DNA of 24,352 nt, taken from Saccoglossus kowalevskii (lineage: Eukaryota; Hemichordata; Enteropneusta; Harrimaniidae). Positions 431 through 23,920 of the stretch are shown in pieces (the stretch's first letter is position 1; every line of letters starts with the position of its first letter). The DNA lies in assembly GCF_000003605.2 (NCBI RefSeq), contig NW_003140813.1, positions 1,041,595-1,065,946 of the forward strand, in the 5' to 3' direction. The notes below the pieces were generated by a model. It was given only the letters and a program-made list of their open reading frames with translations. It made no database searches and had not been told where the DNA came from. The translations under genes were made by a program, and so were the position numbers.

Positions 431-496
431 ATTGCGGGACAGTTTGTGTTCAATTAATTGTTCTGCACAAGAATTGTGCATTAACTGTCCCACAAT
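431..496. repeat. Nested inverted repeats, possible RNA stem-loop
   Basis: The outer arms ATTGCGGGACAGTT (431-444) and AACTGTCCCACAAT (483-496) pair at 13 of 14 positions. Inside are the self-complementary CAATTAATTG (451-460) and a perfect 7-bp hairpin TGCACAA-GAA-TTGTGCA (464-480). No coding potential is evident. It could be a short mobile remnant or a structured end of the UBTF transcript. Confidence 0.6.
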
Positions 497-639
497 GCAC
501 TGTGATAGTCTATTCATAAACAAGCTGATCTATGGGGTACCTATATACAAAAACTGGCTGCCCATTGCAACAAAAATACACAAATCGCAATATTGCATAG
601 TCCAGTATTATAGTACCTATTTTCACTGAAAAAAAACTA

Positions 640-645
640 TTTATT
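640..645 (-). promoter_or_regulatory. Candidate polyadenylation signal AATAAA
   Basis: AATAAA on the minus strand about 1.06 kb past the UBTF stop. It is the first exact match I see downstream of the stop. A second exact match lies at 26-21. The usage of either is not shown by sequence alone. Confidence 0.4.
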
Positions 646-1701: not shown

Positions 1702-2175
1702 TTATTCTTCTTCTGATGACGAATCTGATGCAGAACCGGATTCACTCTCAGTCCCACTGTCACTCTCACCCTCGCCTGAAGTTTCCGATTCACTTGATTC
1801 GGCTTGTTTGCCTTGTCGTTTTCTTGGTGCAGTCTGTGGTTTTGCTTGAGGTTTAGATCTGGCAGTCGTTTTTGGTTGTGGTTCTTCCTCTTCTTCGGAT
1901 TCTTCTGACGAGGATTCTTCACTTCCAGATTCACTAGATGCTGAATCACTATCAGATTCACTCTCTTCTTGATTCGCTACAGGTGTTGCTTTCTGTACCA
2001 CTGCAGCTTTAGGCTTAACTGCCGCTGATGCTTCAGATGCCTCACTTTCACTACCACTACTGGCACTTGAAGACCCCTCCTCTTCAGATTCACTCCCAGA
2101 TTCACTTTCAGAATCTGCATCATTATCAGATTCACTTGCAGATTCTGAATCACTTTCACTTGCAGATTCTTGTAC
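1702..2175 (-). CDS. UBTF: UBTF window exon 15: acidic Ser/Asp/Glu tail and stop
   Basis: 474 nt including the TAA stop (residues 505-661), starting in phase 0 after ACTATTAG. The tail alternates Ser with Asp/Glu (SESDSESASESD near its start, SDSSSEEE at its end), which gives many consensus CK2 sites. Two stretches break the acidity: residues 556-573 (AVKPKAAVVQKATPVANQ) and 603-628 (Pro/Lys/Arg-rich, including APRKRQGKQ). The vertebrate tail is acidic with little basic interruption. Other reading frames here give long spurious ORFs because the codons are biased. Confidence 0.95.
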   Translation of the reverse strand, partial: VQESASESDSESASESDNDADSESESGSESEEEGSSSASSGSESEASEASAAVKPKAAVVQKATPVANQEESESDSDSASSESGSEESSSEESEEEEEPQPKTTARSKPQAKPQTAPRKRQGKQAESSESETSGEGESDSGTESESGSASDSSSEEE

Positions 2176-5100
2176 CTAATAGTAACACAAACAAACTTTG
2201 ATGAATCAACCGGTCACTGGTAGCATAGTGGTTGTCGCATCAGACTCATGATCGGTAGACCCAAGTTTAAATCCTACCTTAATATCAAAAGGGTCAACCC
2301 CTACCCTTGGTGAGTGTGCCACAGTCTCAATGAAAAGGCCAATTCCACTGGCCGAGATTCATTCACTAACAAATGCGACTTTGGGGGAACCTTGGCTAAG
2401 GTTCGCAGATGCTTGTGTTCGACCGAGCCTGGTTGACGCCAGGATAGCGCATTAAATTACCATTTGATAGGAAGATGGCCGCACAGCCCTGTTATGTAGT
2501 CCCAAACATAGATACGACTTCTGTGGCAAAAATGCACTATGTGTCAGCACTAGCACTTGCAATTTACACATACAAAAAAAAAAGTCTGAAGAGACAACAA
2601 TGACATTCAATGTCCGGAACTGTCGCCTGGCACCAAAAATATTTAAAAAAAAAAAAAACTTTGATGAATCACTGCACTTCTTGTATCAAGAGAACAAGAA
2701 CCCATTACCATCATCTGACCCGATGATTGAATCATTTATTTGCGAGTAAAATAAGATTACCTTAGCTTTCACAGCAACTTTTCTTCGGCCCTTCTTTAGT
2801 TCGGACAATTCCTTATATCTTTTTAACTCTTCTTGCGTAAGACTCTAAAAACAGTTAGCAGAGAGAGGTTAAATCTTTTAGAATTATAATAACAAGTAAT
2901 AACATGTATAGCGATACAAATATTGATAACTGCATATAGCTTTCAGAAAGGTAATAACTGACGCTAATACAAGTTTACCATTTCCATTACTGCCATTAAC
3001 ATAGTATAAAATGACATACTGTGCGTTGACTAAATTATAGTCAAAAAAAAATGTCAAATCAATTTAGTTACAAAATTTGATTTTTTGCAAATACAAGACA
3101 AAAATTCTGCCATGTGTGAATACTGACATACATTATCCTGTTTACCCAGAATGCTTTGTACAGCTGTCCAAAAAAAGACTAATTGCAGCCTGTTTTTTAA
3201 ATACAATTTTTTCAATAAAAAATACAAACCTTTTCAAATTTATCACGTAGTTCTTCAAATTTTTTAAACAATTTATCTCTCTTCAGTTTGTATTTCTTTT
3301 TTTCTTGGTCAGGCATCATTTTCCATCTTCTTGCAATTTCTTGTATCCTAGATTTGTTTTCCAGATGCCTTAATTCCTCACTCTGTAACATTTCTCTTGT
3401 ATACAAAGCATATCCGTTGCTACAAAAACAAAACAATATCACAGGTTTGTGTGAAGTAACAGAAGAATAATGACTTTTATGTAGCTTATATAATTCAGAT
3501 TTCTGGATATACTACATAAGGTAATATGACTTAAAATACTGGAAAAGCTGCTCAGATAATTTTAATGAGCTTGCACAAAAATCAACTACATGTATTTGTT
3601 TGATTAAAATATAATTAAAGCGAGAGAATCGTCACCTGTGCATGCGACAAATAGCTCTAGCGTATCATTGTTTGCAAACAAGCGCCTAACTATGAGCCTT
3701 TAACATGCATAATAGTTGCTTGGGACTTAATTCCCACATGTGCACAGGTGATGACCCCTCCCCTTTAAGGGTAATAAATTTGAAAACAATTATCATCACA
3801 CTTATAAAATAATGCTTTGTAATGACATTTATGTTACTTCCCCAAAGTTTACCCATCATTTTACTTTGTTTTTACTGATTACTACTTACGGTGGGGGTTT
3901 CTTGGGTTCTTCAGCCAGTATCTTCTTGTCTATTTCCTCAAGTCTCTATAAAGAAAATGACATACTAAGTGTTGACCATAAGTTTACGGTTACATTTGAA
4001 ACAATATGACTACTCCTGCGAATATATATTCAAATAATACAAGTAAGGCAATAAAACTTACCTCAATGTTCTTCTTTTGTTTGGCAGCTTCCTTCTGCCA
4101 TGGTAATTTAGAAGCTTTATCAAGCCTTGCCCATTGGTCTTTCAAGGCTTCATTTGCTTTCCCTACAGTCACCTAATCAAATGTAATTATAAAAATGTAA
4201 AATCTATAACTGGTGTTGTAAGATCACAATAGACCATTTTTCGTTCACTACGAGAATAACGCGTTATGGTGTCAAACATCGCGTGGGATTCCATGCTTAA
4301 TAATGTGCTGTACATATTTGATGATAAACAATTTTGATTAAGTGAGGGTGTTCGAAAGCAATATTCCTCTGACGAAGATCGGCCGGTCGATGTGAGCTAC
4401 GAAATAAAGAAATTTGAGTTCAAAATCAAATCATTTGATTCTTGCGGCAGATGTTCGACGCGCGTCTTTCATGCATCTAGCGGGATCTCGCAGTTGAACG
4501 TAAAATCACCTATTGACTGATTATCTACTTTGATTCAAAACATTGTCACGTACCAGCAGACTTTTGGCCACATTATTTTTATGTGTATATGTCAGTACTA
4601 TAGAAAACATTTCCAAATAGGAATGAATATGCAACAATACACCAATTTCAAGTACCACACATGTAAAAAGAAAGAAATTTAATTTTTCACAAAGAAGTAG
4701 CTTACTTTGTTTTTCTGAACATATTCTTCTGTTTTACTTTCTATCCACAGTTCTTCAGGTGTTTTAGGCAAGACTTGATTCCTTCTAATTCCGACCCTTC
4801 TCTTTTGTGTTTCCTTTAGATACTCAGGGTGTTCTTTCCTGGTGAACAAATATGCAAATCACTTAATTAAAATGCAGTTTTCAAACTAATCAGTTCGACC
4901 AGCTTGCAAAAGTAAACAAAACTGAAAACGGTTATCGATTTAAACACATTTTTAGCTTTAAAATGGATGCTGGATTTACTCAGCCATCATCAATTGGATC
5001 AAGAAAATCAAGAATACATGTGCATATGTGTGATGTGATGCATGAACATGATTCATCTCAGAAATCTCTCTAGAACAACAATATCTGAAATAAAATGGCT

Positions 5101-8100
5101 ACCAGTCAGCCATTTTGAATCAAACCTGATAAACAAAATGATAAGTGCCCTAATATGCACTGTGTTTGAAGAAATCTGTTCGTGCACAATGCCCAGTTCT
5201 GGAAAGGAATTTTCTAGCACTAAAATGGTTGCCACATCACTCACTATCTTGAATTGGATAGCAAGACAAAAAAAATCAAGTGTACATGTATCCAAAGAAC
5301 GCAAACGCAAGCATGAATGTGATCAGTATAGCCAGTCAGCCATAATCAGCACTAAAATGGCTGCTATTCGGCCATCTTTAATAAGATCACAAAAAATGCA
5401 CTTACATATGTATCTCAAGACATATGTATGCACAGGGGTGAAATTATAACGTTCAACAGAGACTTGGGATTTATTTGCTCTATTAGATGCACCTCCAGTA
5501 AATGCACATGTGTCATTTACTGTATGCTACGTCACTAAAATATCAAAGACTTGCTTCTCTCATTTGCAAATGTGTTTTTAAAAATACTCATTGATACAAG
5601 GAACTTATTAATTTCCAGGGGAAATTGATTTTTAACCCAATGCAGGAAGTATTTTTTTTTAATTGAAGTGATGAAAAAATGAAAATTGAACAAAATATTT
5701 AACCACCTAAAAATGTGTACTTTTGCAGCAGTGAGTTGAAGAATGTACAAATGAGAACTGAATATGAAATTACATTATTACAATTACCGTTAAAATCCTT
5801 TTATAAACCGCATACCAAATAGTAACCGCACCCCCAATTTCAGCTTCAGTGTTAAAGAGTTCTCAACAAAAATTGAAAACATGAAAAGTACCTATTACTA
5901 ACCACACCCCCAATTCAACAAGACTGTGACTGACTTTGTTTCAACCAGCTGGTACATTGTTCCTAATCCTATTCATTTGTTTTGACAACGTGCCTAAAAA
6001 TATTCACACCTCTTTATTGTTCAGTAGTGTTAGGATGTCAAACACGCAGTGAAACTGCTTTTGTTCTTGCGACAACTTTTGTCAATACTCCATATGAATA
6101 TGTCTGTGTGTCGCAAGTTTTCGACAATGAGCTGTTATCACCAGAAAAACTGATAAATTCTTTTTCAATGCTCAGTTTATCTTCCGAAAACAACTAATTT
6201 CTTGATTGATCTGTCATTAACATATTTAAATGACTAAGGTAATTTGAACACATGGGCACCATCCAGCATTTTGATTGGTTAATTAGCAACCTGACGTATC
6301 CAGTCAAGCAACGTGTTGTGTGCATTCAAACTACATGGCGGATGTTGTAGCACATCGATCGTTTACATGTGACCAAAATAATTCGCTTACGGTGAAACTA
6401 AGTTGAATTTTACTTGCATTTGATAACAATTCAATGTATTTATTTTTCGTGCGTTATTATAATCACTACTGAGTAATAATCAACAATTTCAACACTTCGA
6501 AAACAAGTAAGTTATTCACTTGTGAGCCGAAGCATGGCCGGATTGAGTTACCGTTGGTACCGTACTTTTTTAGTGCCATACCATGATCATTTTCTTCTGA
6601 GCAATGCATTAATGTTTGTTTTTATTTGAAGCTCCTGTCAGAATATACTTTCTGTTACGAAGAAAATTACAAAAATAAATGCATATTACATTAAATATAC
6701 TGAGTATTTTTTTTTCATGTGAACAGTTTTTGTGTGACGTGACGCTTATCGCTCTTCCCTGACATCTAAATTGGGGTTACGCTTATATTCAAAAGATTGT
6801 ACGGTGTATTGTTTGTTTTGTGCAAGTGATGTGGGGAAAAAATGACCACGCCCATTTAGTGATTGCAATATGTATGTAATAGAAACCGCACCCCGAACTT
6901 GAGCTGTTGATCCAAATTTTGTATTTGATACATTGTAATATAAACCGCGGCTTATATTAGGATTTTAACGGTATGTTTCTCAGTGGGGTTTGTGAACTGC
7001 AAAACCCAGGAGAATTGCTAAAAACTTCAAAATAGTGATATTAAATGCCAGTGAAAAAATAAATTGTTTAACATTAATGTACATCAAATTAACTTACACA
7101 AATTCATTCATTTGCTTTTCATATTGAGATTTCATGTCTGCTTCCTTCTTCTTGTACTTCTCCTGATGACAAAACAAAAAACATGATTAATTTGTAGATT
7201 ACCACTACGCTGGTTAACATTAATAATTGCCAGTGGGTTAGGAAGATACAAAAAGTTACTTTCGCTATTTTGACTGAAGGAGGATTCAGCGAATATAACT
7301 GTTTTCTCTATATTACATGTATTATTCAACTTGTCAAAAATCAGTGAAAATAAATTCCATAAAAAACGCTCAAAAAGTCTTTTCAGCGATAATAAAGTAT
7401 TTTACAGTAACACACAACCATAGTACATACGACTCCGAGTTGCGTTGTTTTGTTTGAAATACCACTGGTGATACAGTACATCAGAATATACATGCTAAAC
7501 TTTATTATATGTCTGCTATGACAGTACAAAGTATACTATGCACACAAAAGTGTGACGGTCTAGACAAGTCAACACTTGAATCAACTAGCTCTAAGAAAAT
7601 GCAATATCAGGTTTGAATCTTCTACACATGCATGTGTGCCCCTTCTAAGCTGACAAGATGTGCCAATCAGTTTGTGCTAATTTACTGGCCATTACTGGCG
7701 CAAAAGAAAACCATACATTGATATAGCGACTTTGGGAAAAGTCTCACTATAGTTATAGAATGTGTCAAACAAAATATGAAATATGAAATTATCGATATAC
7801 AGTTACATACAATTTTAGTTTTTGTCTTGAGGAACAATCTCCCCAGCAGTAAACAAGTTGACTTACATTTCGACTCAATAATCCTACAAAATCCGTCATG
7901 TTGGGGTACACTGTTTCAATAGGTGATTTTCCGTACAATTGCAAGATCTCGCGAGATGCATGAAAGACGCGCGTCGAACGTCTGTCGCAAAAATCAAACG
8001 ATTTGATTTTGAACTCGAATTTCAATATTTCGTAGCTCACATCGACGGCGGATCTTTGACAGAGGAATATTGCTTTCGAATACCCTCACTTAATGGAAAT

Positions 8101-11049
8101 TGTCTATCATCAAATGTGTACAGCACATTATTAAGCATGGAAATGCCCCCCAAAATATTTTCATGTTTGTCAAATCCCATGCGATGTTTGACACCACTTC
8201 GCCGCTATGACCTTTGTCCTGTTTTTACGTTTGATTTCACGCATAACGCGTGATTCTCACAGTGAATGGAAAATTATGTATTAAAAACATACCTGCTTTT
8301 TCTCTGGTAATTCTCTGTATTTCTGCATTAATGTCTGATTTGCTTCTTTCATGGACATACCAGGATGGTCTTTTAAAAATTTCTCTTTTCTTTCGTTGCA
8401 GAAAAGAAAAATGGCAGAAATGGGTTTTTTTGGTCTGTCCGGATACTTATTAAAAAAAAAAAAAAAAAAAAAAATTAGAATAGCAAAAAGCAAAGACAGT
8501 TATATTCTTAAATCACATAGTGGCAAAAATATTTTGCTGATATTACATTAACTACGGTACTTCAATAATAAAACAAATAACAGATGAACAGATTGGTTCA
8601 TTTTGTAAGTGTGACTAGTCCCCCTTCAACAAATTTGGCAAAAAAATAGCTACCAACTCGAGAGATATCAAAGGAAGCTTAGAAAGAAAGAAGACACATG
8701 GACACATTGGAGACACATTAAAATTAATTAAATATTTAAGATTTGCTTTCAAACAAGAAGCTTGGCAACTAATTTTTTCTGCTATTTGAGATGCATAACA
8801 TAAAAAAAAAAAAGGTTTTTAGTCTAATTACGGTAGTTCCAGACCACCTATGCAATGAATTTAAATATCTGAAATGGGCTAATAATAGATAATCAATATG
8901 CAAGTTTATTAAACTAATCATGTCTGTGGATTACTTCAATGAACTAAATGAATTATTATACAAATTAAGCAGTTATTATGCATAGATTTAGGTCTGTTTG
9001 TTGTTTCAGGATGCACATGTACAATGTTTCATTATAATGTGATGATGATGATTAACTAAATTAGTGGAAAGTCGAAAAGTTAATTATTATGCAAATTAGG
9101 TAATTATTATAGATTTATATAAACCTAAAACTAATTTGATCATAACATTGTGTTAGAGTACATATGTACCAAGAATCATTGAGTTAAGATACATGTAAGT
9201 ACTGTCACAGACCCTCTCTATGTTTTATTGCAATGTGATTAGAACCAAAAATTATGATTTGATTTTACCCAAAAACTGAGTGCGTCTGGAGTATTAATGT
9301 ACCAAGTTTCATTGAAATGGAATAATTAGTACATGTGATATCAGTGTAAAAGCTGAAAATTGGCTAATTATGCAAATTAGGTAATTAATATGCACTGATT
9401 TTAACCAAAAACTAATCAGGTCTGTGCATTGCCCTAGAACATCAATGAACCAAGATTCATTGAAATGGGATAATTAGTACTTGTGATATTAGTGTAAAAG
9501 CCAAAAATTAACTAAAATGGCCATCATTCAGCTATTGTTAAGCAGATCATGAAACAAATGCACATATCTATTTGTGACATGATGTACCATGTGTGAGGTT
9601 TGAACTTGATCAATCCAGACAAGTCTCGGATACGGATCCAGAACTGAATTCTTTAAACAAAATTAATGCCATTCGGCCATTTCGAATTTCATCCGGAAAA
9701 AAAATGACGTGCATTAGGGTCATATTATGTTTAATGTATGTACCAAATTTGAACAAAATCCGTCCATGCATAACTGAGATCCAGGTCCGGAATGGTGAAA
9801 ACGTGCGATTTCAATGCATTTTCGGCCTTAAAGCGGCCGCCATTTGGCTATCGTTAATGAGATCATGAAACAAATGCATACATATTTGTGACATGATGTA
9901 CCTTATGTGTATGAAGTTTGAACTCGATCAATCCAGGCATGTCTCAGATACGGATCCAGAACTGAATTCTTTAAAACAAAATGGCCGTCAGTCGGCCATT
10001 TCAAACCAGATCCCAAAAAAATGATGTGCATCAAGGTCCTATTTTGTTTAATGTATGTACCAAATTTGAACAAAATCCGTCCATGCATAACTGAGATCCG
10101 GGTCCGGAATGCCGAAAATGTGCGATTTTGATGCATTTTCGGCCTTAAAATGGCATATGTTCCATATAATGTGTGATGTATGAGTGAAGTTTGAACTTAA
10201 TCGGTCCATGCATGTTCGAGATACAGGTGATCACGGACGCATGGACGCACACAGGCCAAAACACAAGTCTAATTACTTGAAATAGCAAAAGCTGAAAAAT
10301 TATTAATTATGCAAATTAGGTAATTAATATTTCACATATTTGATGGTGCATCGTTCTATGTATCTATGCAAGTTTCATTGAAATGTAATGATTAGTACCT
10401 GAGATATAGTGGAAAAGCCAAAAATTGACTAATCATTATGCAAAGTAGGTTAATTATATGCATGGATTTTTACCCAAATCACATCTATATACCAGGTTTC
10501 ATCGAAATCTAATAAATAATGTTTCAGATATCAGTGGAACAGTCAGGAAACGGCTAAAAATTGAGCGGGTCTGTGCATTGTTCTGGAGCATCAAAATTCA
10601 TTGAAATGGAATAATTAGTACAGTGATATCAGTGTAAAAGTTGAAAATTGGCTAATTATGCTAATTAGATAATTAATATTTTACATATCTGTCGTTGCAT
10701 GTCATATGTATCTATGTAAGTTTCATTGAAATTTGATGATTAGTATCTGAGATATCAGTGAAAAAGCATTATGCAAATTAGGTTAATTATATGCATTGAT
10801 TTTTACCCAAAACTAATCACATCTGTGCATTAGTCCAGAGCATCTGTGTACCAAGTTTCATCAACATCTAATGAATGGCTCTTTAGATATCAGTAGAACA
10901 GTCAAGGAACAGCTAAAAATTAGCTAATTATCATGCAAATCAGGTAATTAATATGTATAGATTTCAACCAAAACCTAATCAAATCTGTGCATTAGCCAAG
11001 AGCATCTATACACCAACCAACATACGTTCTTGAGATATCAGTGGAACAG

Positions 11050-11080
<31 letters not shown>

Positions 11081-14000
11081 CAGACAGGGTAACCACAAGG
11101 ACTCCCATAGTGTGCTTCGCACACGGGGGTCACCCATCCACGCTGCATAAATGCACCCCCCATCCAAGGTGAATAAACACACCCCATTCTAAAGTGAATA
11201 AACACACCCCATTCTGAGGTGAATAAATGCACCTCATCTGAAGTATATTACCCAGCTTCACCTACCTTTATTTGCAGATTGCCATTGTTATCTGATTGAA
11301 GTCTGGGTTGTTTCGATTTATCCTCTTTCAGTAACTTCTCACGTTCTTCTTCTGGCAGTTTCTAAGATCAAAAAAGAAAACAAATTCATGGGAAATTGCA
11401 AAAGTCAAAAGGTTGGCAATGTCAAGGGGTTACCGGGGGGGGGGGGGGGGATTCTTTTGCTGGCAACCAACCACAATGCAGGTGTAATCTTTTAGCTCAC
11501 ATTTTTTGGATTCCATTTTTTTTTTTTAAGTGATAAATGCTTGAAATAAGTGGATTATAAGAGTAATATTCAGGAGATGATTTGTGTTGGAAGGGGTTTG
11601 AAAGATTGGGCTAATTCTGTGATCACTTATGAGATGAAATCTTTTTTTAATACAAACTTATTAAATTAAATTGCAGATCAAATTCTATTCAAGAAAATTA
11701 ATTTGAAGTTATTTCACCCCTTAATTTTCATTATCCCTCCCCAGATTTCAAATGGAACATCCCATTGGCAGTCAAAGATGCTGCTCCTGGAATCAAATTT
11801 TGTTGTAGTCTTTGAACAAGAAAGGAACAAGTCTATATTTTGGAAAGGTTACTTCACTACTACTAAATGTACACTTACCTCTAAATATTCTTCATATTTG
11901 ATGGCAAATTCTTTCTTGGCCTAAAGAAAAACAAAAATTAACCCATTAAAAATGAAGACAAACCAAGCACTTTACAAAAATGCAAACATGCTTACATGAA
12001 ATAAAGTGTAAACTAGATTTAAACAGCATTCATGAAGACAAAACTTCATACCCTTAATAAAACATCATTGGTGAAAATTTGTTAGAATTTTTTTGGTGAA
12101 ATTTATTTTTCATGTAAAAATAAAAGATTTACATAACTGCATTAGAGACAATACATGTTCGCAATTAGTCATTTATTTCACAAACATAACTGTTATCCTA
12201 TTGGAATTTGCAACTCATTGTGACAAGACTGGACATGCCAACCATGGGAGCCGAACCCACAATCAAATATTTCTTGCAATGAATAACAATAAAACAAATT
12301 TACTATGTTTGTCTTCCTGTGCATTATTCTTTCATGAACAGAAAAAAATTAAAAACATTTAGTCAAAAGCTGTATTGCGCAGTTAGGACAGTATTTATAA
12401 CATAGTATAATTTGAAGCCAAACTGAAGGGATAAAGTGAGAAGAAAAAAAATTTGACAAAAACAAACGTGTCACAATGTCACTCAAAACCAAACAAAAAA
12501 ATCTTTGCCATAAAAAATTATCATCACTTCCTCGGACCCTTTAACACCAACACGAGAATCTCCTACAAATTGGTTTGATACGAGATATTATCACAAATAT
12601 ACGTAGCTTCAAAATTCCGTCAACCAAGCATTGAAATTTTTCTTTCTCTTATTATGCTACATCTGCATCATACAACTAGTATTTCTGATGAATGAATTAA
12701 AATAAAACAAAAACAGAAATACCTAATTTTTCAGATGCACGTCAAAGAAGCCACAACACGAAATCGAATCCAGAGAATGAATCAGTTTTCAACTAATACC
12801 CAGAATTCATCAGTTTTCAGAACATAACTGGAAGGAAATTGGCTTAATCCAATTAGAAAGCCAAGAGCATTGTCAAGCAAGCAAGTCACGCAGAAACACG
12901 CCGAGTTCAATATTCCCAGTGATATTAATACAGTAAGCACAATAGAGCAACGACCAGGAAAAGGAATTTCACAACGTACCTAAAGTCTAGCGTATCCGTT
13001 ACAATGTGATTAAACAAATAACTCAAAAGCTACATTAAAAGTCTTCTTTTAAGTAATATTTACATTCCATGGCTTTTAAATAGCAGCCCACCATTAAGAA
13101 CTGTTCTTTTCAAATCTAATTACACGCTTAATAATGTACAGCAAAATAGCAAAGTGGAAATTTCTCAAACAAAATAAATGTCACGCGCTCGTCAACTAAT
13201 ATATTAATTATTATTAATGAAGCATATATTATCACATTTATTGCTATAGATACGCAAACATCCAGCATGACAAAAATGACGTTTTGGATTCATGTTGATG
13301 GTTGCCATAGTTACTATGTCACCAATAACCTGTAATATTTAACTTCACATTAAATGTCAATTAGGAACTAATGTGGATTGATACTGTGATTGCATTCTAC
13401 AAGTAACAAGACTTTCCAGTTATATTGCAATGTAATGGAAAATCAGAATTACTTTCTGGTATCAGTGTATCTTTTTTTACCGTCATTTTCAACTGCTAAC
13501 TGTAAATTACCACCAATGTTTTCTAAACATCTCCGAATGAAGATCAAAATGTATAGAAAATATCAAATTCACTGCAAAATTAACAGCTATATGTACCGGT
13601 AAACGGGAAAAAAAATTTTTTTTATTGATTTGTTGATAACAAAAAAAATGGCACAGATAAATAAATTTAATATATTTGATTATTTTGAAGCATAAGTTTG
13701 TATTTGTATAGTAACATGTATTTGTTTATTGTATCTTTGTTCTGTTAAGCATATTTGATTAATTTTTATGTTCATAATACTGGGAATTTTGTCTATTTTG
13801 TTGTGAGAATTGTCCTTTGTTGCTTTCCGGTTAGACCCTGTAACATACAAATCACTTACAGCAAAAATTATACGAAATAGTACATACAATTCAACAACAA
13901 ACACTAGATATAGCTATGAATTATGAAAAATACCTATAACAAGACAACATATTTCCTCAAGTTGCATTTAAATTGTTCTGAGTCTAAGTCTTGACCTCTG

Positions 14001-17000: not shown

Positions 17001-20000
17001 ATACAACATTTTCAAAAAACAAGATGGCTGCCAGTCGGCCATTTTAAATCGAATCGCTAAACCACTGCATGTGCATATGTCCCACATAAAGTACTAGGCA
17101 CATGCAAAGAATGAACGGAATCGGTCCAAGGGATTCTGAGATATGACTCCGGACGGACGCACGGACACACAGACGCGCGGACGGACGGAGACCGAATTAT
17201 AAGTCCCCGTTTTCGGACTTCGTCCGAACGGGGACTAAAAATGGTGCACACTGTAGACACAGCCACATTAATACTCAGAACCTACGTTGTCATATTGCAA
17301 ACTGAACACTTACAATGCAACCAACGGCATGGCGCCCTTATATATAAGCGAAATGTTCAGTCCTATCTCCCAAACCTACAAGCATAGTACACGTTCCTCT
17401 TTTAACATAATTTATGCATTTCTAAATGGAAAACATTCATGGGCCAGAGGACATTTCGGTATAGAGGGGTAATCCTATGGAATAACTTACCACCCCATAT
17501 TAGAAATTCAGCCTCATTAGTCATTTTTTAAGAAAACTTACAAAATATATCTTAGTGTAAAAATTTGTTGTAAATGGCTCAAACCTATAAGTGTGTATAT
17601 TGTGTTTCTACAGAGGGCCCAATGAAAATTTCGTTATTGTATTTCGGCTTACCCTCTTTAAATAAAGTGTTAAATAAATAAATACATCTATTTGAACAGT
17701 TGTAATCAAAGTCAAATAAAAACTATGCACACAGTACACTGTAGCAATACAGCCTGGTTAAAGGCAACAAAGCTATGATCCCACTGCATGAACACAAACA
17801 GTAGAAAAACAGCCAAATGAATATGTTGCACATTTGCAATAAATATGTATTAACACCATACACATTTTCAATAAAATGAAATTAAAACTTCGCACACTGA
17901 TCAACGCATCAGATGAAACTGAAATATCAAATTCAAAATTTGATGTGTCGAAAAAACATGCAGTTCTCTGATTGGTCTGATAGTTCGGTGTTAGGGTTGG
18001 GTAGCCAATCAGACAATATTATTATACACTCATTGAGTCAAAAATTGGGCTGAATCAATTAAGAGTAGAACTGAATAAATAATCTTAAACTTACAGCATT
18101 GGATCTTTCTTGATAAAGATCTTTTTCTTGTTGTGATAATGTCTTCCATCGCTTACTGCATTCTACCATCCTTTCATTACTGGGTATATGTGACAAATGT
18201 TCATTCATAAGTATACTACAAAACAAACTATATCCATTCCTAGAAGTCAAAGAATAAAGTAATCATCAGCATCTTGTATATTAAAGCAGGAGGGTGTCAC
18301 CTGTGCAGAAATTAAGTCTTAATCGATGATAACACACGCTAAAACGCAAAGGCTCATGCGTAGACGTTTGTTTGTAAACAATGACACGCTATGGCCATCT
18401 TACGCATGCACAGGTGATGGCTCCCCCACTTTAATACTTTGATGAAATTATGTGATGTTGGTCTCAAACCACCAGTCAGATTACTGTTATAATGGACCTA
18501 AAATGAACGAGATGATAATGTCCCTTGTCAGCATACACGCAACCTCTCTGTCAAGAGATTCAGTAAACCTGCCATTTCACCGTTAAAAAATCAAAACTTG
18601 TCCATTTGTCGGCAATTTACATCTGTGAATATCACAAAACTGATTGTTCATCAAATTTATAATGCTTACATACACATTATTTTCTTGAAAACAGTTAAGA
18701 TTCAAGAGGAGATAAGATAAAGTAAAAGTTCATCATGAATAAATTTCTCCATCAGTGCTATGCAACAGTGACAGAACTAGTTGAACACTGCAAGTACCTA
18801 CAATCTACTAACAGTCACACAACCACTTGAAACACAGATACAGGAAACTAGCAAAACTTACGGTGGAGGTCTGTCAGGTTTTCCGTCTGATTTGTCTTTA
18901 ATTTTCTGTTCTGCTTTTGTTAATATTGATTTAAAAACTTTTGGTTCATAATCAGGATGAGTCCTCTGGTATTCCACAACAGCTTTCTGAAATGATACAA
19001 AATACACACAATGTTATCAAATCTCAATGTTAAACTTGGATGACAATTCATATCCGGGTAGAAAAGCAAATTAAAATCGTGTGAATATGGGAGATTGTCA
19101 TACATTCTCTTTCATTGGACTGCCTCCATGAAAATAAACTATTCCGGGAGACACATGACAATGCAATCAGTCAAAACACACTTGTTCGAGGATTTGGAGA
19201 CTGAAGAGTTTATTATGAAACTTATCAGAACTATGAACCTCATTTCACTCTATGGCTACGATTGGTCAGTGTGTATGTCTGTCTAATCCAGCAAAACACT
19301 GATCTAAACAGGCACAAATCAAAGAATATAACTTTGCACACTTGCAATATAACCAAATGAACACCTTACACTTGCATTGCATTGATATGAAACACTATGA
19401 TCACACTACATGAACACCATAAACACTTGAAAAACAGCAAAAATGAAAATGTTACACATTGTGGATACAGCTACATTAATACTCTGAACTATGTTGTCAT
19501 ATTGCAAACCGAACGCTCACAATACAAATATATGAACAGTTGTAACACCATGAACACATGCTGTATAAACCCTGTGAACAGTAGCACTACAGCCAAATAA
19601 ACACTTTGCAACACTTGTAAAATGCCGTTACCATACCTCATATTGTTTAAATTCCTCGATTGCACCTCTGATGAAGACCATTTTTTTCTTGTCAGTCATG
19701 CTTTTCCATTGTCCCTTTAACAGATCTTCAATCTCTTTTTTACTCATCTAAAAATGCAATTACCAAAATTATTATTACGAAAAAATATATGCAGATTTAC
19801 CTTGTGAGAGGTGACAATAATCGACTTCGGCACACATACTATTTTTAAAAAATGTGGACCCACTGTAGGAAATGCACTTTTAACGTTGCATCATCTCGTC
19901 CCAAAATAAAAAAAATTAATTGTACATGTCCCCTCTCTAGATAACTATAAGCATCCTTAGGAGGGAATACTGTAAATGCATTAATTATTCACTGGGTTTT

Positions 20001-22906
20001 AATTTCGCTATTTTTGCTGTCAAGTACAATCCACAAAATAGCTGAAAATAAACGATTTTACTGAATACAATTAAATTGGGAAGCATTGGAGGATAGAAGC
20101 AAGGTTAGAGTTATTCCCCAAATCAATTATGATCGTCGTTAAGGATACAATATAGGGTAGTTATTTCATATTCAAAACATGCTGAGAGTGTCAAATACAA
20201 TCCCTATTTTCAAGGTTGAGTACTCAAGTTGTAGGAGAGTACCCTTCCCTCTTGTGTATTGACAAATAATCAACGTTTTTGCAGCAAATAAAAGTAAGTA
20301 AATATAAATAGAAAATAATGAAAACCAATTTTTAAGAAGACAAAGATTCAGTTTTACTCAAGAATGGAAGCAGAAAATAATTCCTACCTTTGGATTTGAA
20401 TTGATTGCACTCTCAACTCGTTTATTCTGGAAAATCTGGTAGGGTGTCATGGATTTCTTTACTGGTGCTACAGCTTTTTTAGCACGTGGTGCTGTGGCTG
20501 CTACAAAATCTGGATGGTTGTCCCTGCAATATATATTGAAGATGTGTTACATGAGAACGGTAAAACGCATACATTCTAGTCTCTCAAACATAAATGTATT
20601 TTCATAAAATTATTTTTGTTTTCATCACACAAAGTCTAATACTGAATACTGTAAAAGGGATAATTATTCACTGGGTTTTAATTTAGCTTATTTCGCTGAC
20701 TGGAAAAGGCGCTAAATTAAAACCCAGCGAATATGTAAAATTTAGCATAGAACACATTATCTAAATGACGAAACCGTGAATTTAAAACCCACTGAATATG
20801 CCTGAAATGGTAAATCAGTGAAATTTAAACCCAGTGAAAATTAGTCATTTTACAGTACCCTGCTCAGTAGTACACATTAGGGCACATACATATCATGTTT
20901 AGAAAGATGACTCTGCAATGTGTTCAACACACCGTGTCTATACACCGATTAGGCTAACACAGGTGAACTGTGCCCATACGCTAGTTACTTTGCCTAATAC
21001 CTTGTTTAGGCAGAACACAGGGGATGCTGTACCTGTTACCAAGTTCACCAAGAAGATGGGGCCATATCAGTTATCAAGCTGAGGGGGAACACTGAGAGGA
21101 GGCGGCTGTACGAGTTTCAGGAGAGCCCCGAGATTTGGGTTGTACTGTGAATTCATGACAACCAATCTCAATCATTAATTAATTAAAGAAAGCTTACAAA
21201 GAACTCCTGTGTGCTGAGAGTATTGGAGACGCATTAAAATTAATTCAAAACTAATTTTTGTCTGCTATTTGAGATGTATAACATGAAAAAAATGTGATTT
21301 ACATTATCAAAATTTATAATACATACAGAAAATGCATTTGATTTTTCATCAATGGTTTTAGTCTAAGTAGTTCCAGAACACCTCTACGATGGATTCAATT
21401 TAAATCCGATTTTTTTAGATATCAGAAATGGGCTAATAAATGATCAATATGCATGTTTTATCAACATTAAACTAATCATGTCTGAGTACCTCAATAAACC
21501 AAATGAATTATTATCAGGGATGAGAATGAGAATTTTAATTTTCAGCTGAAAGTAAAGTAGCCGGGGTCCGAAACTTCACTCTAGTTAGGTTGTAAAATCT
21601 GAAAACAAATTTTGGCCCATCGTATCCATGGCAACAGCCAAAAAACTTATTTTTTGAATACCTTCACGCCAATTCTATCTCGCCCTACAATTCTAGGATT
21701 AAAATGCACGGACATACAGCTCATTCTACTCAGCTTGAGTGTGGGCAAACATTTACTGTATATTTTCATTAGCGAGAAAATTGACCCCAAATTTATTACC
21801 TCCTACCAGTCTTGTAATAGCAGTGTTTAAATAATCATGCTTTTTATTTTGGCTACGTTGCGCACTAGTAAGAGATCACCGGCGCCTACATTGTTACATC
21901 GTATCGACATAATCCCAATGCAACTTTGAATGAACTGTAAATGCTGCCTTCATTCTGGAAAATACTATCGCCAAAACGGCTGGAAATAATAAATGTAACA
22001 GCAGAATATGTCCTAGTAATGAGGAAAGTGACTTCTAAAAGACTGAATTTTTTTTTGCAAACTTCGTATACAGGGCTCCATTTAGTTATGAACTGACGTT
22101 AGCTTCACGTCCATGTCCTACCATGGAAACAGCCGAAAACATGTTGCTTGTTTTTTGAGCGGAACGGATCGACAACCAGCCTACCAGCTTGTTCAGTTAC
22201 CACTTCATTTTTCTTCCCGATTTTAACCCAAAACTGAGCGGGTCTGTGCATTGTTCTGGAGCATCAATGTACCAAAATTCATTGAAATGGAATAATTAGT
22301 ACAGTGATATCAGAGTTAAAGTTGAAAATTGGCTAATTAGGTAATTAATATTTTACATATCTGTCTTTGCATGTCCTATGTAAGTTTCATTGAAATTTGA
22401 TGATTAGTATCCGAGATATCAGTGGAAAAGCATTATGCAAATTAGGTTAATTATATGCATTGATTTTTACCCAAAACTAATCACATCTGTGCATTAGTCC
22501 AGAGCATCTATGTATCAAGTTTCATCAACATCTAATGAATGGCTCTTTAGATATCAGTAGAACAGTCAAGGAACAGCTAAAAATTAGCTAACTATCATGC
22601 AAATCAGGTAATTAATATGCATGGATTTCAACCCAAACCTAATCAAATCTGTGCATTAGCACACAGCATTTATGCACCAAATTTCATTAAAAACCAACAT
22701 ACGATTCTTGAGATATCAGTGGGACAGACAGACACACACACACACACATACACACACATACAGGCAGGCAGGGTAACTGCAAAGACTCCCATTGTGTGCT
22801 TAATAGCACACGGGAGTCAATTAACAATTAATTAAACTCACCTGAATGTCTGCATCTCTACTTCAAATGATTTCATGTCTTCTTCGTACTTCTTTACATA
22901 TTTGCC
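1702..22906 (-). CDS. UBTF: Nucleolar transcription factor 1 (UBF), 5'-partial, 15 exons
   Basis: Spliced CDS = complement of 1702-2175, 2761-2844, 3230-3419, 3890-3945, 4062-4172, 4706-4838, 7098-7162, 8293-8445, 11266-11361, 11879-11920, 18095-18239, 18862-18986, 19637-19747, 20388-20523, 22842-22906. The total is 1,986 nt, or 661 residues plus stop. Every junction is GT-AG and phases agree throughout. Domains: end of HMG box 1 (1-22), box 2 (about 44-110), box 3 (142-208), box 4 (243-312), box 5 (338-395), box 6 (410-476), acidic tail (505-661). The box order, the PPPNGY starts of boxes 3 and 6, the LPEEE linker and the acidic tail match vertebrate UBF. Known family role: a nucleolar architectural factor that bends rDNA promoter DNA and recruits SL1/Pol I. 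The N-terminal dimerisation region and the first half of box 1 are outside the window. Human UBF is about 764 residues, so roughly 100-150 residues are missing here. Confidence 0.95.
2209..2655 (+). mobile_element. tRNA-derived SINE with target-site duplication
   Basis: The head resembles a tRNA. It has an A box TAGCATAGTGG at 2221-2231, an anticodon-like loop CTCATGA centred on CAT (2247-2249, Met-like), and a degenerate B box AGTTTAAATCC at 2264-2274. An unrelated body of about 300 bp follows, with A-rich tracts at about 2573-2583 and 2645-2658. The element is flanked by identical 16-mers AAACTTTGATGAATCA at 2193-2208 and 2656-2671, the mark of target-primed insertion. It is antisense to UBTF and fills most of the last intron. 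I cannot name the SINE family. Confidence 0.85.
2761..2844 (-). CDS. UBTF: UBTF window exon 14: basic segment before the acidic tail
   Basis: 84 nt (residues 477-504), phase 0 at both ends, flanked by TTTTAG and GTAATC. It encodes SLTQEELKRYKELSELKKGR, then a Lys-rich end. The vertebrate counterpart follows box 6 as LSPQDRAAYKEYISNKRKS, so the match is by position and character rather than strong identity. Confidence 0.9.
3230..3419 (-). CDS. UBTF: UBTF window exon 13: HMG box 6
   Basis: 190 nt (residues 413-476), phase 2 in and phase 0 out, flanked by TTGTAG and GTTTGT. It starts NGYALYTREMLQSEELRHLE, then RIQEIARRWKMMPDQEKKKY, ending in a strongly basic and acidic helix. It parallels box 3, which also begins NGY after a split Pro codon. 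Confidence 0.96.
3619..3764. mobile_element. 146-bp MITE with TTAA target duplication, copy 1
   Basis: Flanked by TTAA at 3615-3618 and 3765-3768. The terminal inverted repeats share TCACCTGTGCA (left, 3632-3642) with TGCACAGGTGA (right, 3741-3751). The interior is related in inverse orientation to the 18285-18430 copy, for example GTATCATTGTTTGCAAACA. TTAA duplication is typical of the piggyBac superfamily. No transposase is encoded. Confidence 0.75.
3890..3945 (-). CDS. UBTF: UBTF window exon 12: linker between boxes 5 and 6
   Basis: 56 nt (residues 395-412 plus two bases), phase 0 in and phase 2 out, flanked by TATAG and GTAAGT. It encodes RLEEIDKKILAEEPKKPP, then CC of a Pro codon split by the intron. 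The vertebrate counterpart ends EPKKPPMNGY. The intron to the previous exon is only 116 nt. Confidence 0.93.
4062..4172 (-). CDS. UBTF: UBTF window exon 11: core of HMG box 5
   Basis: 111 nt, 37 codons (residues 358-394), phase 0 at both ends, flanked by GATTAG and GTAAGT. It encodes VTVGKANEALKDQWARLDKA and then SKLPWQKEAAKQKKNIE. It is the same size and phase as the box 2 core exon at 19637-19747 and has the same central QW. Confidence 0.95.
4236..4516 (+). repeat. Dispersed repeat, copy 1 (inverted relative to 7917-8275)
   Basis: From ATTTTTCGTTCACTACGAG to AAAATCACCTATTGA. It matches the reverse complement of 7917-8275 over most of its length, with shared blocks such as GACGCGCGTCTTTCATGCAT and CGAAAGCAATATTCCTCTG. 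Relative to the other copy it lacks about 50 bp and 30 bp near its left end. It is rich in CpG compared with the surrounding intron. Confidence 0.8.
4706..4838 (-). CDS. UBTF: UBTF window exon 10: box 4-5 linker and start of HMG box 5
   Basis: 133 nt (residues 313-357), phase 2 in and phase 0 out, flanked by CACCAG and GTAAGC. It encodes KEHPEYLKETQKRRVGIRRN, then LPKTPEELWIESKTEEYVQK. HPEY and TPEELW mirror HPDF and TPYQIF of the box 2 exon. Confidence 0.95.
4955..5400. repeat. Degenerate repeat modules with ATGGC...GCCAT motif, locus 1
   Basis: Diverged modules, each opening near AAAATGGCT-n-CAGCCATTTTGAAT (5093-5117) or AAAATGGCTGCTATTCGGCC (5355-5374) and containing GCATATGTG or TGTGATG stretches. 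They resemble the better preserved arrays at 9505-10170 and 16180-17060. The 135-codon open frame through this locus (5042-5449) is a by-product of the repeat. Confidence 0.55.
5787..6971. mobile_element. 1,185-bp DNA transposon relic with terminal inverted repeats
   Basis: The left end CCGTTAAAATCC-n-TATAAACCGC (5787-5811) pairs with the right end GCGGCTTATA-n-GGATTTTAACGG (6947-6971). Both are bordered by TA (5785-5786, 6972-6973), as for Tc1/mariner-like insertion. Sub-terminal ACCGCACCCC-type motifs recur near 5826, 5904 and 6886. An open frame at 5982-6197 and a plus-strand ATGGCGGATG about 70 nt after GATTGG are the only gene-like parts. No transposase is recognisable, so it is non-autonomous. 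Confidence 0.7.
5982..6197 (+). pseudogene. 71-codon open frame inside the 5787-6971 element, unidentified
   Basis: The second half, residues 20-71 (CQTRSETAFVLATTFVNTPY onward, ending LSLSSENN), has balanced, protein-like composition, while the start looks arbitrary. It may be the remains of an element-encoded protein or a captured host exon. I do not recognise it, and it may be chance. Confidence 0.2.
7098..7162 (-). CDS. UBTF: UBTF window exon 9: C-terminal helix of HMG box 4
   Basis: 65 nt (residues 292-312 plus two bases), phase 0 in and phase 2 out, flanked by CATCAG and GTAAGT. It encodes EKYKKKEADMKSQYEKQMNE and then F plus a split Val codon. Length and phase are identical to the box 1 exon at 22842-22906. 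Confidence 0.94.
7867..7899 (-). other. Possible alternative first exon, 11 codons, repeat-derived
   Basis: Minus-strand ATG at 7899-7897 opens MTDFVGLLSRN and ends at a strong donor, AAAT then GTAAGT (7866-7861). It is in phase 0, as is the start of the next UBTF exon (7162). Splicing would therefore give an in-frame short protein of boxes 5 and 6 plus tail. There is no transcript evidence in sequence alone, and a chance donor is possible. Confidence 0.25.
7917..8275 (-). repeat. Dispersed repeat, copy 2 (inverted relative to 4236-4516)
   Basis: The reverse complement of copy 1, and longer. It ends 17 nt from the splice donor of the HMG box 4 exon. The plus strand has an accidental open frame (7939-8253) that is not preserved in the other copy, so I do not treat it as a gene. 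Past the shared part, on the minus strand, lies a possible first exon (7899-7867). Confidence 0.8.
7947..7956. promoter_or_regulatory. TCTCGCGAGA promoter-type palindrome
   Basis: A perfect TCTCGCGAGA. In mammals this motif marks many CpG-island promoters and is bound by BANP; Kaiso (ZBTB33) has also been linked to it. Beside it is GACGCGCGTC (7966-7975). On the minus strand it lies about 50 nt upstream of an ATG at 7899. The copy at 4236-4516 carries a degraded version, so only this copy keeps the motif. Confidence 0.45.
8293..8445 (-). CDS. UBTF: UBTF window exon 8: HMG box 4, helices 1 and 2
   Basis: 153 nt (residues 241-291), phase 0 at both ends. It begins YPDRPKKPISAIFLFCNERK and ends YRELPEKKQ. 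KKPISAIFLF corresponds to vertebrate KRPVSAMFIF. The acceptor follows a 23-base T tract on the minus strand (8474-8452). Confidence 0.96.
8452..8474 (+). repeat. Poly-A tract of 23 (T23 in the UBTF transcript)
   Basis: On the minus strand it forms the polypyrimidine tract directly before the AATAAG acceptor of the HMG box 4 exon. Confidence 0.9.
9505..10250 (+). repeat. Tandem duplication, unit 315 bp, with ATGGC...GCCAT motif, locus 2
   Basis: GATCATGAAACAAATGCA starts at 9546 and again at 9861, each followed by the same series of motifs (ATACGGATCCAGAACTGAAT, CAAATTTGAACAAAATCCGT, CATTTTCGGCCTTAAA). Each 315-bp unit contains two diverged half-units. The array runs into GGACGCATGGACGCACACAG. 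Open frames here on both strands come from the repeat. Confidence 0.75.
11051..11080. repeat. (CA)n(TA)n microsatellite
   Basis: A CA tract at 11051-11068 runs straight into a TA tract to 11080, just before the terminal hairpin of the long repeat. The counterpart tract in the other copy is at about 22724-22761. Confidence 0.9.
11100..11131. repeat. Terminal hairpin of long repeat, copy 1
   Basis: GACTCCC (11100-11106) and GTGTGC (11110-11115), loop TTC, GCACAC (11119-11124), GGGGGTC (11125-11131). The same structure, with GGGAGTC, ends copy 2 at 22784-22818. Confidence 0.75.
11144..11243. repeat. 25-bp minisatellite, about four copies
   Basis: GTGAATAA starts at 11169, 11194 and 11219, a regular 25-bp period, with a diverged unit before 11169. 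The body is ACACACCCCATTCT. It ends about 21 nt from the splice donor of the 11266-11361 exon. Confidence 0.85.
11266..11361 (-). CDS. UBTF: UBTF window exon 7: linker between HMG boxes 3 and 4
   Basis: 96 nt (residues 209-240), phase 0 at both ends, flanked by TCTTAG and GTAGGT. It starts KLPEEEREKLLKED, equivalent to the vertebrate LPEEEQQRVLGEE segment, and continues into a polar linker ending NLQIK. Confidence 0.93.
11435..11450 (+). repeat. Poly-G tract of 16
   Basis: Sixteen uninterrupted G on the plus strand, C16 on the coding strand of UBTF, about 72 nt upstream of the acceptor at 11363-11362. It is unusual in otherwise AT-rich introns. Confidence 0.95.
11451..11878. other. Intron sequence, nothing recognised
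   Basis: AT-rich intron between the 96-nt and 42-nt exons. The open frame at 11703-11924 on the plus strand overlaps the true minus-strand exon and shows no family features. Confidence 0.6.
11879..11920 (-). CDS. UBTF: UBTF window exon 6: 42-nt exon at end of box 3
   Basis: A 14-codon micro-exon, AKKEFAIKYEEYLE (residues 195-208), phase 0 at both ends, with TCTTTAG and GTAAGT splice sites. It sits between a 6.17-kb intron (11921-18094) and a 517-nt intron, and completes the last helix of box 3. Confidence 0.93.
11921..14330. other. First part of the 6.17-kb intron, no clear feature
   Basis: AT-rich, with only short unconvincing ORFs. A tRNA B-box-like GGGTTCGGCTCCC appears on the minus strand near 12257-12245 without an A box, so a SINE remnant is only possible. 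A 10-bp inverted pair GTTTTGATGG / CCATCAAAAC sits near 14070 and 14204. Confidence 0.5.
14343..15072. repeat. Repeat with 148-bp direct repeats
   Basis: AATATCACTTTT at about 14686 and 14834 begins two units 148 bp apart that share CAAAAATGACAAAAAT and ATTGAAGATATCA. A third, weaker unit follows after AAAGAAGTCGA. The array ends in ACGACGGAGACGGAC and a short hairpin CTCAT-ATG-ATGAG (about 15026-15038). This layout, units of about 145 bp then GGAGACGGAC then a hairpin, recalls the 16-17 kb element. Confidence 0.6.
15073..15741. other. Intron sequence, nothing recognised
   Basis: No conserved coding or repeat structure found by eye. ORFs here are short and have low-complexity composition. 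Confidence 0.5.
16021..17236. mobile_element. 1.2-kb element with terminal 10-mers, 140-bp modules and 3' hairpin
   Basis: Starts AGTCCCCGTT (16021-16030) and ends AACGGGGACT (17227-17236). A second AGTCCCCGTT at 17202-17211 pairs with that end to form a hairpin through CGGAC-TTC-GTCCG. The interior holds 140-bp modules opening CAAGATGGCTGCCAGTCGG (16452, 16592, 16881, 17021). A larger duplication of about 429 bp covers 16452-16880 and then 16881-17200. It is inserted in repeat R1; copy B at 19184 shows the unoccupied site. The hairpin followed by CTAA is Helitron-like, but the terminal inversion is not, so the class is open. Confidence 0.65.
17321..17688 (+). pseudogene. LINE (non-LTR retrotransposon) 3' end, truncated
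   Basis: Frame 1 reads TNGMAPLYISEMFSP...STRSSF. After a frameshift another frame reads FRYRGVILWNNLPPHIRNSA, the C-terminal signature of CR1/L2/Jockey-type reverse transcriptase ORFs (usually SFSYRGA-LWNSLP--LR). A non-coding tail follows with AATAAA and TAAATAAATAAATA at about 17673-17686. It is 5'-truncated, frameshifted, and inserted into repeat R1. Confidence 0.75.
18095..18239 (-). CDS. UBTF: UBTF window exon 5: HMG box 3
   Basis: 145 nt, completing the split Pro codon and ending in phase 0, flanked by TTCTAG and GTAAGT. It encodes NGYSLFCSILMNEHLSHIPS, then NERMVECSKRW and SQQEKDLYQERSNA (residues 147-194). ERMV-C--RWK-LSQ-EKD-Y is the clearest UBF box 3 signature in the window. Confidence 0.97.
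18285..18430. mobile_element. 146-bp MITE with TTAA target duplication, copy 2
   Basis: Flanked by TTAA at 18281-18284 and 18431-18434, and exactly the same length as the 3619-3764 copy but in the opposite orientation. The termini contain GTCACCTGTGCA and TGCACAGGTGATGG. It lies in the intron upstream of the HMG box 3 exon, about 45 nt from the acceptor. Confidence 0.78.
18862..18986 (-). CDS. UBTF: UBTF window exon 4: end of box 2 and linker to box 3
   Basis: 125 nt, phase 0 in, ending with CC of a Pro codon split by the intron, flanked by TTTCAG and GTAAGT. Residues 105-146 begin KAVVEYQRTHPDYEP, continue ILTKAEQKIKDKSDGKP and end DRPPP. The LTKAE...KDK...DG linker matches vertebrate UBF closely. 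Confidence 0.95.
19184..19620 (+). repeat. Dispersed repeat R1, copy B (uninterrupted)
   Basis: Begins TTCGAGGATTTGGAGACTGA and continues through many degenerate TGAACAC motifs to about 19620, 16 nt from the splice donor of the 19637-19747 exon. It is nearly identical to the first 280 bp of copy A. The 5' part is open (LFEDLETEEF...DWSVCMSV) in copies A and B, but a stop in copy C and the overall identity argue against selection on protein. Confidence 0.8.
19637..19747 (-). CDS. UBTF: UBTF window exon 3: core of HMG box 2 (UBF2-type cassette position)
   Basis: 111 nt, exactly 37 codons, phase 0 at both ends, flanked by TTTTAG and GTATGG. Residues 68-104 begin MSKKEIEDLLKGQW and end FKQYE, giving helices 2 and 3 of box 2. 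Vertebrate UBF2 lacks 37 residues of box 2 through exon skipping. This exon has the same length and, by my recall of the human sequence, the same place, so skipping it here would keep the frame. Confidence 0.95.
19970..20062. mobile_element. Short TA-flanked MITE relative of 20649-20855
   Basis: The left end CTGTAAATGCATTAATTATT continues CACTGGGTTTTAATTTCGCT, matching the left end of the 20649 element. The right end, near GAAAATAAACGATTTTACTG, looks like a worn inverse terminus. Limits are approximate. Confidence 0.5.
20388..20523 (-). CDS. UBTF: UBTF window exon 2: box 1-2 linker and start of HMG box 2
   Basis: 136 nt, phase 2 in and phase 0 out, flanked by TTGCAG and GTAGGA. Residues 22-67 run from RDNHPDF through an Ala/Lys/Pro linker into KKSMTPYQIFQNKR, the first helix of box 2. 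TPYQIF corresponds to the vertebrate TPQQLW region. Confidence 0.92.
20649..20855. mobile_element. 207-bp MITE with long terminal inverted repeats and TA duplication
   Basis: Left CTGTAAAAGGGATAATTATT then CACTGGGTTTTAATTT; right AAATTTAAACCCAGTG then AAAATTAGTCATTTTACAG. Both are bordered by TA (20647-20648, 20856-20857). Internal motifs repeat the ACCCAGYGAATATG theme. It is non-coding. Confidence 0.75.
20858..21189. other. Intron with a GC-richer stretch of unknown origin
   Basis: About 21000-21125 is less AT-rich and codon-like (for example AGGAGGCGGCTGTACGAGTT), but all frames are stopped. It may be a decayed gene or element fragment. I do not recognise it. Confidence 0.3.
21520..22215. 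mobile_element. Possible insertion of about 700 bp within the long repeat
   Basis: It has no match in the collinear copy at 8617-11131. It contains an imperfect direct repeat: CCATGGCAACAGCCAAAAAA near 21627 and CCATGGAAACAGCCGAAAAC near 22120, each followed by TTTTTTGA. No ORF of note and no clear termini. It could instead be ancestral sequence lost from copy 1. Confidence 0.4.
22784..22818. repeat. Terminal hairpin of long repeat, copy 2
   Basis: GACTCCC (22784-22790), GTGTGC (22794-22799), GCACAC (22806-22811), GGGAGTC (22812-22818). The arms differ from copy 1 by a compensated base pair, which suggests the fold rather than the sequence is kept. Confidence 0.75.
22842..22906 (-). CDS. UBTF: UBTF window exon 1: C-terminal helix of HMG box 1
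   Basis: 65 nt, starting in phase 0 after TTTTAG and ending with AG of a split Arg codon before GTGAGT. It encodes residues 1-21, GKYVKKYEEDMKSF... to TF, a basic/acidic helix matching the last helix of vertebrate UBF box 1. The first two helices of box 1 must lie in an exon upstream of the window. Its size and phase equal those of the 7098-7162 exon in box 4. Confidence 0.9.
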
Positions 22907-23661: not shown

Positions 23662-23850
23662 TGTTCGAGGATTTGGAGACTGAATAGTTTATTTAAAAAC
23701 TTATCAGAACTATGAACCTCATTTCACTCTATGGCTACGATTGGTCAGTGTGTATGTCTGTTTAATCCAGCAAAACGCTGATCTAAACAGGCACAAGTCA
23801 AAGAATATAACTTTGCACACTTGCAATATGGCCAAATGAACACTTAACTT
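23662..23850 (+). repeat. Dispersed repeat R1, copy C (5' part only)
   Basis: TGTTCGAGGATTTGGAGACT to CCAAATGAACACTTA, closely matching copies A and B. It then stops, without the long TGAACAC-rich part. A substitution creates TAG in the frame that is open in the other copies. Confidence 0.85.
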
Positions 23851-23920
23851 AAAACTCACTTAATATACATGATTGGGCTTCCGCTTGGGGTAAATTATTA
23901 CAACAAAGTTTTTAAATTGA

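Follow-up and report, generated by a model that had tools for sequence, protein, structure and literature searches.

UBF (UBTF) is the protein that opens ribosomal-RNA genes. TFAM and other two-box HMG proteins likewise possess tandem HMG boxes, but two only. According to a passage of PMC10435976, the three N-terminal boxes of UBTF fold about 140 bp of DNA into a single 360-degree loop when they act as a dimer, and the UBTF2 form lacks a central 37-residue piece of box 2; a section of PMC8863233 places coding exon 7 of the mouse gene, which is differentially spliced, at that piece. A part of PMC9438803 suggests a possible contact of the three C-terminal boxes with Top2a. The same part uses the HMG_box_5 domain to mark UBF and gives 29% as the share of organisms in its tree that have HMG box 5, with a clustering in Metazoa. 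The leukaemia duplications described in a section of PMC10220021 hit human exon 13, at the link of helices 2 and 3 in box 4, and an excerpt of PMC10244165 gives an exon13-exon13 transcript for one patient and calls the duplications in frame.

The window, the whole stretch of 24,352 nt of Saccoglossus kowalevskii DNA that was analysed, contains on its minus strand, from position 22906 to 1702, 15 exons that join into a single open frame, 661 residues long and closed by a stop codon (Table 1). The gene model was drawn from the genomic DNA of one genome with splice-corrected exons, and throughout the gene the acceptors are AG (15 of 15) and the donors GT (14 of 14). The joined frame comprises the end of box 1, boxes 2 to 6 in order and an acidic C-terminal tail; the last coding exon, which had no match in the Pfam search, holds 36 Glu, 8 Asp and 47 Ser among its 157 residues. 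As was found by the search of solved structures, box 3 matches 1v64 (E 7.7e-26), box 6 matches 1v63 (E 7.9e-12, and 2.2e-12 in a second search), box 5 matches 1l8y (E 7e-5), and box 4 matches 1k99 (E 1.2e-12) and 1wgf (E 3.7e-11) together with HMGB1 (2.7e-13). The entries 1v64, 1v63, 1l8y, 1k99 and 1wgf are annotated as upstream binding factor 1 or nucleolar transcription factor 1; we take 1k99 and 1l8y to be human boxes 1 and 5, and 1v64, 1wgf and 1v63 to be mouse boxes 3, 4 and 6. Box 5 passes Pfam HMG_box_5 (PF14887) with 33.3 bits against a cut-off of 25 (E 4.8e-8), and box 6 falls slightly below the PF00505 cut-off (24.7 against 25.4). Judged by its sequence, the gene is a UBF/UBTF orthologue and an ordinary member of the family, with a predicted rDNA/Pol I role by homology. 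It resembles mammalian UBF/UBTF in box order, acidic tail and the HMG_box_5 domain, and differs from it in that boxes 3 to 6 of the window show 35-49% identity to the solved mammalian boxes. This distance, together with the small number of genes taken to be SOX genes that was seen in the genome (a lower bound), suggests an animal outside the vertebrates.

Table 1. Coding exons of the UBF/UBTF gene in the window, in the order of translation (positions are those of the window; A, first half; B, second half).
Exon	Content	Positions	Strand	Length, phase and remarks
A1b	end of HMG box 1	22842..22906	-	65 nt, phase 0-2; 9/28 residues identical to end of 1k99
A2a	linker plus helix 1 of box 2	20388..20523	-	136 nt, phase 2-0
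A2b	remainder of box 2	19637..19747	-	111 nt = 37 aa, phase 0-0
A3a	linker ahead of box 3	18862..18986	-	125 nt, phase 0-2; ends within Pro codon
A3b	box 3	18095..18239	-	145 nt, phase 2-0
Lk1	C-terminal helix of box 3	11879..11920	-	42 nt, phase 0-0; i5 precedes
Lk2	linker joining the halves	11266..11361	-	96 nt, phase 0-0
B1a	most of box 4	8293..8445	-	153 nt, phase 0-0; counterpart of predicted box-1 first exon
B1b	end of box 4	7098..7162	-	65 nt, phase 0-2
B2a	linker plus helix 1 of box 5	4706..4838	-	133 nt, phase 2-0
B2b	remainder of box 5	4062..4172	-	111 nt = 37 aa, phase 0-0; twin of A2b
B3a	linker ahead of box 6	3890..3945	-	56 nt, phase 0-2; ends within Pro codon
B3b	box 6	3230..3419	-	190 nt, phase 2-0; partner is A3b + Lk1 (187 nt)
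C1	segment past box 6	2761..2844	-	84 nt, phase 0-0
Last coding exon	Ser/Glu-rich acidic tail	1702..2175	-	TAA stop at end

The splice donor after the box-6 exon (GTTTGT, 3224-3229) is weak; the join made there is backed by the frame and by the 1v63 alignment, which runs across the junction. The introns hold several repeats. A 207-nt interspersed repeat occurs three times (15741-15947, 19185-19391 and 23664-23870; the later copies are 98% and 86% identical to the first), and two of its three copies sit within introns of the UBF gene. A 300-nt repeat, 96% identical between its copies, lies in two introns (10712-11011 and 22376-22675) and adjoins CA-rich microsatellites. An inverted repeat of about 228 nt (4289-4516 and 7916-8142, 90-92% complementary) flanks the exons 4706-4838 and 7098-7162.

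The window does not contain the start of box 1, and the N-terminal dimerisation domain would lie upstream, in or beyond a stretch of 9,882 N bases that directly adjoins the end of the window (position 24352). The first exon of box 1 was found neither by tblastn with box 4 in the 12,277 readable bases among the 22,159 upstream bases to the contig end nor by a genome-wide search with box 1 of 1k99. It is probably located in the N stretch beside the window.

Two exons of the window can be set beside the mammalian reports. The box-2 exon 19637-19747 (37 residues, phase 0-0) has the same length as the box-2 piece that is missing from mammalian UBTF2 in the passage of PMC10435976, and the symmetric box-4 exon 8293-8445, ending at the helix 2/3 link, is like human exon 13 as described in the sections of PMC10220021 and PMC10244165. 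Since both exons fit these accounts, the two features, a 37-residue box-2 exon and an in-frame box-4 exon, appear to be conserved from Saccoglossus to mammals.

The earlier note on this DNA had proposed that boxes 1-2-3 and 4-5-6 go back to one three-box, multi-exon segment duplicated in tandem. All ten of the exon lengths and phases it gave for the two halves are correct on the splice-corrected exons, and in both halves the proline codon ahead of Asn-Gly-Tyr is indeed split after CC. The parallel between the exon series stands as well, but the 190-nt exon of box 6 corresponds to more than the 145-nt exon of box 3: an extra intron, i5, present in the first half only (between 18095 and 11920), divides the partner into 145 + 42 = 187 nt. 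The next intron, i6 (phase 0), is common to both halves and extends the match beyond the series given in that note. Among the residue echoes that it listed, HPDF/HPEY, TPYQIF/TPEELW, the central QW, PPPNGY and QEK lie in register, and DMKS is one codon off. In the ungapped alignment of the 65-nt exons (9/28 residues identical) DMKS has an offset of 9 in one half and 8 in the other, and its register is restored in the Smith-Waterman (SW) and MAFFT alignments of the halves solely through compensating gaps. Being out of register, it was dropped as evidence for a duplication.

The two halves were aligned as proteins without intron data, both starting at the box-1/4 intron i0, which was left out of the count of coincidences because the alignment is anchored there in both halves. 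The SW score of half against half is 213, while 1,000 shuffles gave a mean of 55.9 and a maximum of 94 (z 18.3). In both the SW and the MAFFT alignments, all five second-half introns counted (i1, i2, i3, i4 and i6) fall at the exact residue and phase of the first-half introns. In an alignment of boxes 2 to 6, with box 1 left out, i3, i4 and i6 share a column in partner boxes, and i2 lies in columns 35 and 36, though it is exact in both pairwise alignments. No intron in that alignment is shared between non-partner boxes; therefore, the intron pattern repeats per three boxes and not per box. Intron i6 owes its placement to the gap-free alignment that continues from box 3/6, because its surroundings together with the linker that follows, when scored alone, do not exceed shuffles (682 of 1,000 scored as high). 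The linker exons 11266-11361 and 2761-2844 likewise resemble each other no more than shuffled sequences do (890 of 1,000 shuffles reached their score); the introns that follow them (11266|8445 and 2761|2175) are both phase 0.

It is very probable that the two halves of UBF are tandem copies of one intron-bearing three-box segment. The proposal of the earlier note is thus supported by several things seen directly, namely the exon structure, the exact coincidence of introns, the similarity of the two halves as proteins in register, and box trees that are compatible with the expected pairs and reject a 123/456 division.

The note had predicted that the boxes would pair 1/4, 2/5 and 3/6. This holds firmly for 3/6 and moderately for 1/4; the 2/5 pair is weak, with box 2 scoring higher with other boxes. 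The comparison of boxes 3 and 6 gives z from 14.1 to 20.6 in four species combinations, and that of boxes 1 and 4 gives 19.2 with box 4 of the window and 13.9 with mouse box 4. For boxes 2 and 5 the values are 4.9 (13/57 residues identical) and 6.5, and box 2 of the window outscores this match with box 1 (16.9), SMARCE1 (14.5), box 4 (14.0), SOX2 (12.9) and NHP1 (10.3). HMGB1 box B gives the top score both for box 5 (z 6.0 in the window, 7.8 in the mammal) and for box 4 (21.0 in the window, 22.1 in the mouse), for which box 1 comes next. Genome searches gave a similar picture. The best match outside its own exon was the box-3 exon for the box-6 part of the second-half query (E 0.05, 12 candidates scored) and the box-6 exon for the box-3 part of the first-half query (E 0.0076, 11 candidates scored). 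Mammalian box 1 (1k99) retrieved the box-4 exon with E 4e-8, the next match having 0.015. Boxes 2 and 5 did not retrieve each other among those 12 and 11 scored candidates, and the box-2 part of the query matched genes that we take to be SOX genes (E 0.016 and 0.036). In Pfam, HMG_box_5 was hit by only two of the five boxes, box 5 (E 4.8e-8) and, below the cut-off, box 2 (E 0.0013).

The phylogenetic analysis used three data sets, and the box trees are weak because the boxes are short. Tree 1 (17 taxa, 74 columns, TFAM boxes included) joined 3 and 6 with a support of 90 and left boxes 2 and 5 on one side of a split (76); boxes 1 and 4 did not form a clade, and TFAM box A was placed beside box 1 (32) and TFAM box B beside 3/6 (76). 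With the two TFAM boxes removed (tree 2; 15 taxa, 73 columns), the best tree held all three pairs, 3/6 with 99, 2/5 with 76 and 1/4 with 48, the latter being the best support for a 1/4 clade in any tree. Tree 3 (16 taxa, 78 columns), to which a provisional mammalian box 2 sequence was added, grouped that mammalian box 2 with box 5 at 93, with box 2 of the window joining at 84, and 3/6 at 99; 1/4 was again not a clade. The tree with all pairs was not rejected in any of the three data sets (AU p 0.46, 0.64 and 0.17), whereas the 123/456 split was rejected in all of them (AU p 0.0027, 0.0006 and 2.4e-5). A convincing TFAM gene was not found in the Saccoglossus genome (best E 0.145), and a link of TFAM to the boxes was dropped, there being no clear TFAM gene in the genome for a comparison of introns.

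These results bear on another order of box origin, in which, for example, box 1 gave rise to box 2, duplications involved one or two boxes, and only some pairs, in particular 3/6, are direct copies. Indeed, box 1 is the nearest partner of box 2 by score (z 16.9), none of the three data sets rejects a tree in which 1 and 2 are sister boxes (AU p 0.38, 0.31 and 0.053), and 2/5 fail to retrieve each other in the genome searches. At the same time, the series i1 to i4 continues uninterrupted across the linkers and boxes 1 to 3, and does so in both halves, which is hard to obtain by piecemeal copying, and the AU test puts the (2,3)(5,6) tree between borderline and rejected (p 0.054, 0.019 and 0.002). 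An origin of this kind seems quite unlikely.

The intron coincidence could also be explained by boxes that were added singly and by introns inserted later and independently at matching places, for instance at proto-splice sites. Intron gain at AG sites occurs generally, two of the five second-half introns follow AG, and i5, being present in one half only, demonstrates that gain or loss did happen. The probability of five exact matches in five is 1.4e-11 if each of 555 sites is equally likely to receive an intron, 2.3e-10 once the phases are fixed and still 1.1e-6 if the eligible sites are restricted to the 60 after AG; all five landed within 3 nt in 3 of 2,000,000 draws (1.5e-6). Favoured insertion sites do not explain the matches, because three of the five second-half introns are not after AG; i4 is preceded by ACC in both halves. 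Together with the similarity of the halves in register (z 18.3), these values make independent insertion highly improbable.

That the likeness is a by-product of the common HMG fold and of an old HMG-family intron has a negligible probability: four other HMG-box genes of this genome do seem to have a phase-0 intron close to i0 of box 4, one codon away, but i0 is excluded from the test, and the remaining shared introns lie at different box positions and match between partner boxes only.

The four genes with this apparent intron (L007, L008, L013 and L014, presumably HMG20-like, TOX-like and WDHD1-like) have it at a common box position, one codon downstream of i0 of UBF. The intron may be an old one of the HMG family from which i0 could have been inherited, a further reason for leaving i0 out of the count. 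A second multi-HMG-box gene was also detected (L012, G000:C557:202500-209000, positions 1-4344, minus strand). Its single long open frame, of which the locus covers 1,448 aa (another reading gave 1,499 aa), contains five stretches of HMG box (PF00505, E 3.4e-29), and these boxes are not interrupted by any intron.

If the tandem duplication of a three-box segment is accepted, the ancestor would have had three HMG boxes with introns already at their present positions, and its duplication in tandem would have produced the six boxes. Unequal crossing-over or a similar event between introns may have been the mechanism. As both introns that would close the copied block on its 3' side are of phase 0, the reading frame could survive at the join; afterwards i5 would have been gained in the first half or lost from the second. 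The duplication presumably predates the split of the Saccoglossus kowalevskii lineage from mammals, because both have the same boxes in the same order. Other genes have arisen by tandem intragenic duplication of sets of exons, which is a common process; the present case is like them in the copied block with parallel exon lengths and phases and differs in its unit, three divergent HMG boxes, each with its own intron signature.

Concerning function, the copied unit may correspond approximately to the unit that suffices for DNA looping, because the passage of PMC10435976 assigns one full loop to a dimer of the three N-terminal boxes, and the second copy would then have been free for other roles, such as the contact with Top2a that is suggested in the part of PMC9438803. 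A more specific reading is rather doubtful and is offered tentatively: a dimer of the three-box ancestor might already have made a full loop, the six-box form might have arisen when the whole segment was copied, the second copy might then have been freed from bending DNA to contact other proteins, and the box-5 exon 4062-4172 might be the twin of the exon skipped in UBTF2 and perhaps be skipped itself in some animals. The twinning with the box-2 exon skipped in mammals would follow because the copied segment carried its introns.

Among the matches listed in a search of open-access literature, a scope outside which most subscription papers fall, there was no description of a three-box duplication in UBF. 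A section of PMC10220021 states that only mammalian UBTF has box 4; its presence in an animal so distant from mammals argues against this. The duplication also predicts that box 5 has the twin of the regulated UBTF2 exon, and the evolutionary unit would match the three-box unit that is reported to loop DNA as a dimer. The clean intron record of this gene points to a simple way in which a core factor of ribosomal-RNA genes came by its six boxes.
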